The notes under the pieces: model-generated
Told to the model about the DNA's origin: nothing
The model's database searches: none
What the model saw: the letters and a program-made list of their open reading frames with translations, nothing else
Made by a program: the position numbers and the translations under genes
Assembly (NCBI RefSeq): GCF_001898115.1
Contig: NZ_MKSQ01000005.1
Coordinates: 308,129 to 372,128, forward strand
Source of the DNA: Allobosea sp. 67-29
GTDB lineage: Bacteria; Pseudomonadota; Alphaproteobacteria; Rhizobiales; Beijerinckiaceae
Direction of reading: 5' to 3'
Length of the DNA: 64,000 nt
Part shown: positions 955 to 19,253 of the stretch, one piece after another
Numbering within the stretch: the first letter of the stretch is position 1
Layout of the letters: every line of letters begins with the position of its first letter

Positions 955-1668
955 TCAGACCACGCGCTTGTCCGGCGAATCGCAGAGGTCGTTCTGGATG
1001 CAGCGCCCGCATTCGGGCCGGAGCGCCTTGCAGGTGTAGCGCCCGTGCAGGATCAGCCAGTGATGGGCATGGCGGCCGAATTCCGGGGGGATCGCCTTCT
1101 CGAGGCCGAGCTCGACCTGCAGCACGTTCTTGCCGGGCGCTATCCGCAGCCGGTTCGCGACCCGGAAGACATGGGTGTCGACGGCGTGGGTGATCTGGCC
1201 GAAGGCGATGTTGAGCACGACATTCGCCGTCTTGCGGCCGACGCCCGGCAGGCTCTCCAGCGCCTCGCGCGTCGTCGGCACCTGCCCGCCGAATTCGGCG
1301 ATCAGCTTCTCGCTGAGCGCGATCACGTTCTTCGCCTTGTTGCGATAGAGCCCGATCGTCTTGATGGCGTCGCGGACCTTGTCCTCGCCGAGCGCCAGCA
1401 TCTTCTGCGGCGTGTCGGCGATGGCGAAGAGCGGGCGCGTCGCCTTGTTGACGCCGGCATCGGTCGCCTGCGCCGAAAGCACCACGGCGACCAGCAGCGT
1501 GAACGCGTTGACCGATTCCAGCTCGCCCTTGGGCTCCGGGTTCGCGGCCCGGAAACGCTCGAAGATCTCGCGGATCTCGGCCGGCTTGCGGGCGCGCGGC
1601 CGAGGTCCCGCCAATGTGATGCGCTTGGCTGCGGCGACCTTGCGCGGGGCACTGTTCTGCTGGTCCAT
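955..1668 (-). CDS. nth: Endonuclease III (DNA glycosylase/AP lyase)
   Basis: Base-excision repair enzyme that removes oxidised pyrimidines and cleaves the abasic site. It has the helix-hairpin-helix with the catalytic lysine (LPGVGRKTANVVLN), the catalytic aspartate in AVDTHVFRV, and a C-terminal 4Fe-4S motif C-x6-C-x2-C-x5-C (CKALRPECGRCIQNDLC). About 237 residues, slightly longer than the usual 211-220 because of a basic N-terminal tail. The ATG at 1668 is preferred over an in-frame TTG at 1689, which would overlap the divergent gene. No Shine-Dalgarno sequence precedes the ATG, but TATAAC lies exactly 6 nt upstream, so a leaderless message is likely. The neighbouring DUF2244 and ada-like genes support a repair context. 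Confidence 0.95.
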   Translation of the reverse strand: MDQQNSAPRKVAAAKRITLAGPRPRARKPAEIREIFERFRAANPEPKGELESVNAFTLLVAVVLSAQATDAGVNKATRPLFAIADTPQKMLALGEDKVRDAIKTIGLYRNKAKNVIALSEKLIAEFGGQVPTTREALESLPGVGRKTANVVLNIAFGQITHAVDTHVFRVANRLRIAPGKNVLQVELGLEKAIPPEFGRHAHHWLILHGRYTCKALRPECGRCIQNDLCDSPDKRVV

Positions 1669-1673
1669 CACGG

Positions 1674-1682
1674 CGTTATAAT
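1674..1682. promoter_or_regulatory. Shared symmetric -10 element between nth and the DUF2244 gene
   Basis: Only 20 nt separate the two divergent ATG codons. Their centre reads GTTATAAT: TATAAT on the plus strand (1677-1682) and TATAAC on the minus strand (1679-1674). Each hexamer is followed by exactly 6 nt and then the ATG of its gene. That spacing puts the expected transcription start on the A of each start codon. Neither gene has a Shine-Dalgarno sequence. This suggests one bidirectional promoter making two leaderless mRNAs; the -35 regions are weak. Confidence 0.55.
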
Positions 1683-1688
1683 CTGCCA

Positions 1689-2219
1689 ATGGACCTCGAC
1701 AAGAGCCCCGCCGACGACAGGAGCGACGCCGCCAGGCGCCCGGTCTTCGACGCGACCATCACGCCGCATCGCTCGCTCGGCCAGCAGGGCTTCCGCATCG
1801 TGATGACGCTGGTCTGCCTGGCGAGCGTGGTGTCCTCGATCCCCTTCGTGGTGCTTGGCGCCTGGCCGGTGGCCGGCTTCTTCGGCATCGACGTGCTGGC
1901 GCTGTTCATCGCCTTCCACGTCAATTTTCGCCATGCCCGCGCCTTCGAGCGCATCGTGGTGACGCCGTTGGAGATCCTGCTGCGCAAGGTCTCGCATCAC
2001 GGCCGGGAGAAGGTCTGGCGCTCCAACCCGGCCTGGACCCGGCTCGAGAGGCAGACCGACGAGGATTACGGCCTGCTCGGCCTCACCCTCGTCTCGCGCG
2101 GCCGGAGCGTCGCGGTGGCGGCCGCGCTCTCGCCGCAGGAGCGGGCAAGCTTCGCCGATGCCCTCGGCACGGCGCTGGCGAGCGCGCGCCGCGGTGTGGA
2201 TTACGATCCGCTTCGATGA
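1689..2219 (+). CDS. DUF2244 family integral membrane protein
   Basis: A 176-residue protein of the DUF2244 family, which has no established biochemical function. An N-terminal cytoplasmic stretch (PVFDATITPHRSLGQQGF) leads into two closely spaced hydrophobic helices (about residues 38-58 and 62-78). A soluble C-terminal part begins at FERIVVTPLEILLRKV and includes WRSNPAWTRLE and GRSVAVAAALSPQER. The ATG at 1689 lies 6 nt after a TATAAT hexamer and has no ribosome binding site, so the message may be leaderless. It is divergent from nth and is followed by an ada-like gene, an arrangement I recall from other Rhizobiales genomes (not checked). The role is unknown; a link to DNA repair is only contextual. 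Confidence 0.85.
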   Translation: MDLDKSPADDRSDAARRPVFDATITPHRSLGQQGFRIVMTLVCLASVVSSIPFVVLGAWPVAGFFGIDVLALFIAFHVNFRHARAFERIVVTPLEILLRKVSHHGREKVWRSNPAWTRLERQTDEDYGLLGLTLVSRGRSVAVAAALSPQERASFADALGTALASARRGVDYDPLR

Positions 2220-2310
2220 GGTTCGGCTGCCCGTTCTTGCCAGCTTTCGGGTGGGAGCGGCATGGTGCGCGCCCTAGATTCGCATCATGACGATGGATGC
2301 GAGGTTAGCC

Positions 2311-3288
2311 ATGAACGCCCAGGCTCCGATGAAAACGGCGATGACTCCGACGCGCTTCTCGAATGCGGTGTTGGCGCGCGCCGCCGAGGCGATGCCGTCC
2401 GAGGCGGATTTTCCCGCGGTCGTGCCGGGCTCCGATTACGATACGGTGCGGCGCATCCTCGCCTTCATCACCCATAACTGGCGCGAGCAGCCGACGATCG
2501 AGGCGATCGCGGAAGCCGCCGGGGCGACACCGACCGATGTCCATCACCTCTTCCGGCGTTGGTGCGGGCTCACTCCCAAGGCCTTCCTGCAGGCGATCAC
2601 GCTGGACCATGCCAAGGGCCTGCTCGCCTCCTCGGCCAGCATCCTCGACACGGCGCTCGAGGTCGGCCTCTCCGGTCCCGGCCGGCTGCACGATCTCTTC
2701 GTCACCCACGAGGCGATGTCGCCGGGCGAATGGAAGCTCGGCGGCGAGGGGCTGAAGCTCTCCTATGGCTTCCATGGCTCGCCCTTCGGCGAGGCGCTGG
2801 TCGTGGTGACGGATCGCGGCCTCGCCGGCCTCGGCTGGGTCTCCAACAGCGTCGACGGCGGCAAGGTCGTCGGCGGCCGCGCCGAGGCGCTGGCCGACAT
2901 GATGCGCCGCTGGCCCCATGCCGACTACCACTACGATCCGGCCCTGACGGCGCCCTATGCCGGCCGCATCTTCGACCCCCGGGCCTGGTCGGCCGAGACG
3001 CCGCTGCGGGTGGTGCTGATCGGCACGGATTTCGAGGTCCGCGTCTGGGAGACGCTGCTGCGGATTCCGGTCGGCTGCGCCACCACCTATGGCGACGTCG
3101 CCAACCATATCGGCAGGCCCACTGCGGCGCGCGCCGTCGGCATGGCGGTGGGCAAGAACCCGATCTCCTTCGTGGTGCCGTGCCACCGCGTCATCGGCAA
3201 GTCGGGCGCGCTCACCGGCTACCATTGGGGGCTGACCCGCAAGCGCGCCATCCTCGGCTGGGAGGCCGGGCAGGCCGCAGCCGGCTGA
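2311..3288 (+). CDS. ada: AraC-type HTH / O6-methylguanine-DNA methyltransferase (Ada-like, lacks N-Ada domain)
   Basis: A 325-residue suicide methyltransferase that reverses O6-alkylguanine damage, fused to a DNA-binding domain. Residues about 40-130 form an AraC-type double HTH (HNWREQPTIEAIAEAAGATP ... LTPKAFLQAITL ... LHDLFVTHEAMSPGEWK). The C-terminal half is the ASCE-type methyltransferase with acceptor cysteine in VVPCHRVIG and the winged-helix segment AVGMAVGKNPISFVVPCHR. E. coli Ada has an extra N-terminal zinc/methylphosphotriester domain with four cysteines; it is absent here. The start at 2311 follows GAGG at 2301-2304 with 6-nt spacing; an upstream ATG at 2287 has no ribosome binding site. 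Without the N-terminal sensor, self-activation by phosphotriester repair is not expected. Confidence 0.9.
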   Translation: MNAQAPMKTAMTPTRFSNAVLARAAEAMPSEADFPAVVPGSDYDTVRRILAFITHNWREQPTIEAIAEAAGATPTDVHHLFRRWCGLTPKAFLQAITLDHAKGLLASSASILDTALEVGLSGPGRLHDLFVTHEAMSPGEWKLGGEGLKLSYGFHGSPFGEALVVVTDRGLAGLGWVSNSVDGGKVVGGRAEALADMMRRWPHADYHYDPALTAPYAGRIFDPRAWSAETPLRVVLIGTDFEVRVWETLLRIPVGCATTYGDVANHIGRPTAARAVGMAVGKNPISFVVPCHRVIGKSGALTGYHWGLTRKRAILGWEAGQAAAG

Positions 3289-18838: not shown

Positions 18839-19174
18839 TCAGATCGGTTCGGCGCCGAGCTTCGCTTGCCAATGGCCGAGGCGTTCCTTGAGGATGCGGT
18901 CGCGGATATAGGCGAGGCTTTCCTCCTCCAGCCGTTCCAGCTCCTCCAGACGAAACGCCTCCGGCCCATGCGCGTCCCAGGCTGCCTGCAGCCCGTAATG
19001 CGTGTGGCTGCGATGGCGCAGGGTGAAGCGCAGGCGGTTCTCGATGCTGGCGAGATCGGGCGCGCGGCCGACCCAGCTTTGGCCGCTCGATTCGCAGCGC
19101 AGCAGGTAGATGCCCGCGACGGTCTTGCGTTCCTTGTAGGCGGCAACGGCCGCTCGTCTCTCGTCGTTTCGCAT
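18839..19174 (-). CDS. GIY-YIG nuclease family protein
   Basis: A 111-residue protein with a single degenerate GIY-YIG domain: GIYLLRCESSGQSWVGRAPD gives the two strands, then ENRLRFTLRHRSHTHYGLQAA and EAFRLEELERLEEESLAYIR. Small stand-alone GIY-YIG proteins of this kind are common in Rhizobiales; their targets are unknown. The ATG at 19174 begins MRNDERRAAVAAYKERK. A promoter with perfect TATAAT (19209-19214, minus strand) and TTGAAG (19230-19235) lies upstream, with a CCGG-centred palindrome in its spacer that may be a repressor site. It is divergent from an SDR gene. Confidence 0.82.
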   Translation of the reverse strand: MRNDERRAAVAAYKERKTVAGIYLLRCESSGQSWVGRAPDLASIENRLRFTLRHRSHTHYGLQAAWDAHGPEAFRLEELERLEEESLAYIRDRILKERLGHWQAKLGAEPI

Positions 19175-19208
19175 CGCTGCCGCCGTTCCGTGTCCGCTCC
19201 CGAGGATC

Positions 19209-19253
19209 ATTATAATCCGGGTAAAAATTCTTCAAGCTATTTTATCCGGGCAA
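19209..19253. promoter_or_regulatory. GIY-YIG promoter with two TTATCCGGRTAA-type operator sites
   Basis: On the minus strand TTGAAG (19230-19235) and TATAAT (19209-19214) are spaced by 15 bp. Two near-palindromes, TAATCCGGGTAA (19213-19224) and TTATCCGGGCAA (19242-19253), lie 29 bp apart. The first fills the promoter spacer and the second lies just beyond the -35, towards the SDR gene. Two similar sites in an AT-rich island of a GC-rich genome suggest binding by a dimeric repressor, identity unknown. Confidence 0.5.

Follow-up and report, generated by a model that had tools for sequence, protein, structure and literature searches.

The 20 bp that separate nth, encoding endonuclease III, from the divergently oriented gene for a DUF2244 membrane protein probably act as a single two-way sigma-70 promoter, with each message starting at, or within 1-2 bases of, its own start codon. 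Several features that can be read directly from the sequence argue for this interpretation: a TATA common to both strands, 6-nt distances to the two ATGs, a near absence of Shine-Dalgarno (SD) sequences in Bosea, candidate -35 elements on both sides, and conservation among relatives.

Two start codons around one TATA box

The window, by which we mean the whole 64-kb stretch of DNA that was analysed, carries the features listed in Table 1. The identity of nth is given by TIGR01083 (255 bits against a cut-off of 211.7) and also by Pfam HhH-GPD, and that of its neighbour by a match to PF10003 (160 bits).

Table 1. Coordinates of genes and putative promoter elements at the nth-DUF2244 locus (positions in the window)
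Feature	Positions	Strand	Remarks
nth, endonuclease III (237 aa)	958..1668	-	ATG at 1668-1666; predicted leaderless
DUF2244 membrane protein gene (176 aa)	1689..2219	+	ATG at 1689; predicted leaderless
Divergent intergenic region, 20 nt	1669..1688	.	dyad centre 1678.5
Predicted -10 of DUF2244, TATAAT (-7T)	1677..1682	+	6 nt before ATG; -7T in 36/38 genus loci
Predicted -10 of nth, TATAAC (no -7T)	1675..1680	-	6 nt before ATG; TATAAC in 37/38 genus loci
Candidate -35 of DUF2244, TTCTGC	1655..1660	+	spacer 16, inside nth codons 3-5; weak TTGACA match
Candidate -35 of nth, TTGTCG	1697..1702	-	spacer 16, inside DUF2244 codons 3-5
Ada/Ogt-type methylated-DNA repair gene	2287..3288	+	TIGR00589 over cut-off; downstream of DUF2244

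Positions 1666-1668, read as their reverse complement, give the nth ATG; the DUF2244 ATG occupies 1689-1691, and the bases between them (1669-1688) read CACGGCGTTATAATCTGCCA. On the plus strand TATAAT (1677-1682) is followed by 6 nt and the DUF2244 ATG; on the minus strand TATAAC (1680-1675) is followed by 6 nt and the nth ATG. The two hexamers overlap in the TATA at 1677-1680, which belongs to both on opposite strands, and TTATAA (1676-1681) shares its dyad centre, 1678.5, with the two ATGs. The overlapping hexamers and paired 6-nt distances described in the initial annotation are therefore exact on the coordinates. TATAAT, which that annotation called rare in such GC-rich DNA, occurs three times in the window where 0.72 occurrences are expected, which makes it unusual here but not unique. 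The longer GTTATAAT occurs once in the window, against an expectation of 0.02. When the geometry alone is searched for, as CATN{5,8}NTATAN{6,9}ATG, it is found at five places in the window's own genome and at two for the reversed control. The bare geometry is thus not extraordinary by composition, and it is conservation, not rarity, that carries the argument.

Two other in-frame nth starts are available in the window, a GTG directly before the ATG and a TTG at 1689, and neither is general among the relatives' sequences that were inspected. A 7-bp inverted repeat, GGTCCAT/ATGGACC (1662-1668 and 1689-1695), was considered as a functional element and set aside: it simply encodes the MD- with which both proteins begin, and relatives do not generally have it. 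Elsewhere in the window, ATTATAAT at 19209-19216 makes another symmetric pair of -10 hexamers, both of them with -7T, where a minus-strand ORF (18839-19210) has its 5' end.

Conservation within Bosea

DUF2244 is present in 57 of 61 genomes (the window's own, 36 of the same genus and 24 of the same order), and all 57 loci were read. The genus sample consists of 37 loci from this set (L001-L037) and a 38th (L251). Writing the distances to the nth and DUF2244 ATGs as a pair, 35 of the 38 genus loci, L251 among them, are 6/6 and the other three (L035-L037) are 6/8; these three are labelled as the same genus and show about 60% DUF2244 identity. The common TATA and the 6-nt distance on the nth side are kept throughout, TATA-N2 ending exactly 6 nt upstream of the nth start in 38/38 loci, and both genes begin with ATG in all 38 (the scan accepted ATG only). 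A comparison of the TATAA core and of both spacings across relatives had been proposed in the initial annotation, and it reveals no loss of the core and no spacing in the genus other than 6/6 and 6/8.

The column alignment was restricted to L001-L034, the 34 of the 37 loci that have a 20-nt gap and 6/6 spacing, and so without L251 and the three 6/8 loci. In it the TTATA columns are invariant (2.0 bits), whereas the information content of most N6 spacer columns is 0.4-1.1 bits. The plus-strand hexamer is TATAAT in 19 loci, TATAGT in 13, and TATACT and TATATA in one each; the minus-strand hexamer is TATAAC in 33 and TATAAG in one. In the same alignment a GGC beside the core (read on the nth strand as GCC, immediately following the -10, at 1672-1674) is also nearly invariant. 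GC-rich discriminators are linked to stringent control, and the GCC of the nth strand may be one of this kind.

This pattern, in which most spacer bases in Bosea drift while the core and the lengths do not, is difficult to square with a chance arrangement kept only by the close kinship of the Bosea genomes. Such an explanation can draw on the five genomic sites against two in the control, and on the phylogenetic dependence of the loci, but the conservation of the nth arm across families (below) already contradicts it and we regard it as scarcely credible. The GTDB species genome contigs (257 Gb) were also scanned for the 26-nt pattern CATNNNGGCGTTATARTNNNNNNATG, which yielded 58 matching stretches. 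Thirty-seven of these carry nth and DUF2244 at that place and are mostly from Bosea, with L145, a distant Rhizobiales MAG (63 and 48% identity), among them. The remaining 21 have no nth-DUF2244 pair in the fetched sequence and come from scattered phyla and classes, as expected by chance in 257 Gb.

The nth arm across the order

For a broader view, 266 loci were scored: 38 from the genus, 56 from other genera of the family, 95 from the order and 77 from other orders of the class. The family loci are all 56 that turned up; the order loci represent 93 of the 119 DUF2244-bearing order genomes plus two from the 61-genome set, and the class loci 75 of the 124 other-order genomes with a match, of which two carry two copies. 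The 266 loci exclude four duplicates as well as the loci from the GTDB scan, the genome geometry search and the CarD search. We found nth adjoining and divergent from DUF2244 in 38/38 genus, 53/56 family, 90/95 order and 60/77 class loci. Among these divergent loci, a TATA lies 4-10 nt from both ATGs in 38, 8, 40 and 0 cases, respectively. The nth side alone, taken as TATA-N2-N6-ATG (k=6), is present in 38/38 genus, 35/53 family and 44/90 order loci, and in 0/60 beyond the order. This amounts to 117 of the 181 divergent loci of the order, and over 0-40 nt the next-commonest nth spacing accounts for only 4, 5, 2 and 2 loci at the four levels. Leaving aside the window's own family, 43 families of the order with a divergent pair were sampled, and 20 of them show k=6; it is absent from 18/53 family and 46/90 order loci. 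An arrangement ancestral to the class was rejected, because none of the 60 divergent other-order pairs has either the nth TATA-6-ATG or a common TATA. Separate start-proximal -10-like sites, spotted by eye, are not part of this count.

The position of the DUF2244 start is more variable. Where nth has k=6 (117 loci), it lies 6 nt from the TATA-based hexamer in 43, 8 nt in 38, 7 nt in three and 10 nt in one (85 close-start loci), and is further off or unplaced in 32 (here called distant-start). This preference for 6 or 8 nt, with 7 nt rare, was noticed in L038-L050 and L195-L334. Within the family, 44 of the 53 loci have their DUF2244 start somewhere other than 6-8 nt from a TATA, so that even the window's own family does not always show the double arrangement. 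Taken together, these counts suggest that the nth arm anchors the arrangement and varies less across the order than the other arm, and that DUF2244 would use the same TATA box in many lineages (at 6 or 8 nt) and start at least 22 nt away in others.

A rival reading is a one-way leaderless nth promoter, with DUF2244 transcribed from elsewhere (for example from inside nth) and its close ATG a by-product of genome compaction. In keeping with this, nth k=6 is held while the DUF2244 start moves between 6, 8 and at least 22 nt, and 27 family loci carry the nth element without a close DUF2244 start. Two considerations run against it at this level: the DUF2244 spacing clusters at 6 and 8 nt, and a promoter further upstream would yield a leadered mRNA without an SD sequence in Bosea. 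The -7 base and the -35 region bear on it as well.

Unequal -10 hexamers and CarD

The two predicted -10 hexamers are mostly TATAAC or TATAGA for nth, and TATAAT, TATAGT or TATACT for DUF2244. The base at -7 of nth is never T in the 117 loci (C in 68, A in 28 and G in 21), whereas DUF2244 has -7T in 95 of them (36/38 genus, 16/35 family and 43/44 order). The initial annotation spoke of one symmetric -10; the common TATA and the 6-nt spacings bear this description out, but the hexamers themselves are not equivalent. The same inequality qualifies the bidirectional-promoter interpretation that accompanied it, which the 6/6 or 6/8 spacing in all 38 genus loci and the -35 candidates otherwise support. 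In the DUF2244 arm, -7T tracks the close start, being present in 78/85 of the close-start and 17/32 of the distant-start loci (Fisher p 9e-6, a value that is only indicative because the loci are related and not independent). This association argues against a promoter that serves nth alone.

In several alphaproteobacteria, over 60% of the -10 elements for sigma-70 are without -7T, and CarD has been proposed as a helper at such promoters (PMC8407463). The genome studied here has a CarD family protein (PF02559 over cut-off, in a 197-aa ORF in L052), and another PF02559 match falls inside a 1192-aa open frame. Given an nth element without -7T, a CarD gene in the genome and the prevalence of such promoters in alphaproteobacteria, CarD dependence of nth is plausible, and the nth arm is probably CarD-assisted.

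Candidate -35 elements in the opposite coding sequences

Both -35 candidates fall within the first codons of the opposite gene. A TT at spacer 16 is found on both strands in 35/35 genus 6/6 loci, each time within codon 5 of the opposite gene. As these TTs are the complements of AA in that codon, the whole promoter in Bosea lies on one dyad axis. On the DUF2244 strand the TT at spacer 16 recurs in 7/8 short-leader and 18/27 long-leader family loci and in 13/34 order 6/8 loci. Its constancy in the genus counts against a promoter for nth only, while its presence in 18 of the 27 family loci that lack a close DUF2244 start means that the TT need not belong to DUF2244 at all. Weighing this with the spacing and the -7T association, we consider a one-way nth promoter unlikely, although it is the most substantial of the alternatives. 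On the nth strand 35/38 genus loci have a TTG at spacer 16, and 31/44 order loci have one at spacer 18. Pooled over spacers 16-18, it is found in 75/85 close-start and 15/32 distant-start loci, against a background of 23 in 1568 positions.

The nth-side motif could have a second cause. The TTG lies in DUF2244 codons at a fixed distance from the DUF2244 start in the 85 close-start loci, as the spacer of 18 in the order illustrates, and so it might be coding; the fifth DUF2244 residue is K or N in 75/85 close-start loci. The nth -35 may accordingly reflect protein constraint in part. A purely coding origin was judged unlikely, since nearly half of the distant-start loci still have the TTG at 16-18. 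On the other side, where a coding origin may apply, the fifth nth residue is N in 35/35 genus 6/6 loci, and among the 45 of 60 class loci in which an upstream nth ATG could be placed it is N in none and K in five. The order 6/8 loci mostly have CAG, AAG or ACC as codon 5 of nth, and mostly not AAx, which makes the reciprocal fifth-codon layout a trait of Bosea and its near kin. The -35 candidates support the two-way promoter independently, strongly on the nth side and less so on the DUF2244 side. A TGTT(C) at 1653-1657, in nth codons 4-6, is nearly invariant in Bosea (TGTT in 35/35 genus 6/6 loci), a conservation that exceeds what the TT of a -35 would need.

It is also conceivable that both transcripts start further upstream, inside the opposite gene, and that TTATA is a conserved regulator site or mRNA element and not a -10. 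Promoters within neighbouring coding sequence are common, and the GGC beside the core is conserved beyond the need of a -10. However, the TTG keeps its promoter-like distance of 16-18 despite the differing coding context of the distant-start loci, well above background; the nth ATG is held at 6 nt, which a regulator site would not need; and SD-like 4-mers are nearly absent in Bosea. We therefore think this explanation very improbable.

Evidence on the predicted leaderless messages

An SD-like 4-mer precedes DUF2244 in 0/38 and nth in 1/38 genus loci, and the absence of an SD sequence at both genes, asserted in the initial annotation, accordingly extends through the genus with a single exception, on the nth side. 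In the wider k=6 sample such 4-mers precede nth in 7/35 family and 12/44 order loci. We predict that both mRNAs are leaderless at this promoter. A genome-wide leaderless signature was also considered as support and was dropped. Summed over 37 genus genomes, TATAATN{5,8}ATG (412 occurrences) shows no excess over TATAATN{15,18}ATG (462), with 112 and 111 for the respective reversed-pattern controls, and in the window's own genome TATAMT precedes ATG by 5-10 nt 28 times and by 11-30 nt 50 times. Leaderless starts on TATAAT are thus not a visible genome-wide habit.

A model for the two-way promoter

We propose that RNA polymerase would bind in either direction on the one TATA box, the sigma-70 enzyme using both -10 hexamers, that transcription would begin with the A of either AUG, and that translation of both mRNAs would follow the leaderless route. 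With no -7T and a better -35, the nth arm would lean on CarD; the DUF2244 arm has -7T and a weaker -35 and would not. The balance between the arms would then be set by polymerase orientation and not by a dedicated regulator. In its fullest form the model is dyad-symmetric: the fifth codon of each ORF supplies the opposite -35, one TATA supplies both -10s, and an ancient difference at -7 makes nth CarD-dependent and DUF2244-ogt CarD-independent. We offer this version tentatively and regard it as possible, if on balance doubtful. Were it true, one polymerase-accessory factor would set the balance between two DNA-repair transcription units.

The link to repair comes from the Ada/Ogt-type gene, which follows DUF2244 on the same strand in 25/31 distinct genus loci (one duplicate of the window's own locus having been removed) and in 17/30 order and 9/28 family loci tested. 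DUF2244 and this gene are possibly co-transcribed, in which case both promoter arms may serve DNA repair. If the model is right, the locus would be a minimal case for two protein genes, with two whole promoters and two start codons in 48 bp (1655-1702) and with coding and promoter function overlaid within them. Because the nth arm recurs in so many families of the order, the 6/6, 6/8 and nth-only versions offer a natural series with which to study -7T, CarD, spacing and the choice of orientation. The two-way reading also predicts that a leaderless nth is widespread in the order.

Comparison with known promoters

Bidirectional sigma-70 promoters with a common symmetric -10 were reportedly described by Warman et al. 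in Nature Microbiology in 2021. That divergent promoters sharing a -10 are known, as stated in the initial annotation, is borne out by two further papers, which describe starts 7-25 bp apart and usually 18 (PMC10268837, PMC12825309); the second gives 18 bp as the start-to-start optimum, with 10 and 23 also common (PMC12825309). The nth-DUF2244 interval resembles the promoters described there in having one pseudo-symmetric -10 for both orientations (PMC12825309, PMC10268837, PMC11661796) and, as we predict, in that one binding event would exclude the other. The 21 bp predicted between its starts fall inside the published 7-25 bp range but differ from the usual 18, and the hexamers overlap in TATA only, so that -7 and -11 do not coincide. 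The preferred 18-bp register with reciprocal -7 and -11 positions (TATWATA) is accordingly not the one seen here, though the published definition, as given in these papers, allows other spacings. Further differences are the two predicted zero-leader mRNAs, the -35 candidates in each other's fifth codon and the unequal -7 bases. The second RNA at the bidirectional bacterial promoters described is often antisense and non-coding (PMC10268837). Five bidirectional promoters tested in E. coli fire too rarely for polymerases to compete (PMC12825309), and strong competition between the arms should therefore not be assumed here.

Leaderless messages are likewise well documented in alphaproteobacteria. 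There are 171 mapped leaderless starts in S. meliloti, all AUG (PMC3616915), and leaderless mRNAs make up 7% in M. extorquens, where they are defined by leaders of 0-9 nt (PMC9320726). The two genes studied here share with such mRNAs the AUG, the lack of an SD sequence and a -10 about 6 nt before the AUG; in contrast to those mapped cases, they are two predicted leaderless genes set back to back on one -10. The nth arm is also similar to the CarD-linked promoters that lack -7T (PMC8407463), being without -7T in 117/117 loci in a setting where CarD is encoded, but here the DUF2244 arm, which shares its TATA, usually has -7T, and the action of CarD is putative. In the literature searched, we did not find a pair of leaderless genes on a 21-bp register that overlaps in TATA and has reciprocal fifth-codon -35s. 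Promoters that share a -10 have been described, as have leaderless genes, and what is new is their deeply conserved combination in a mirror-image and, by prediction, doubly leaderless arrangement.
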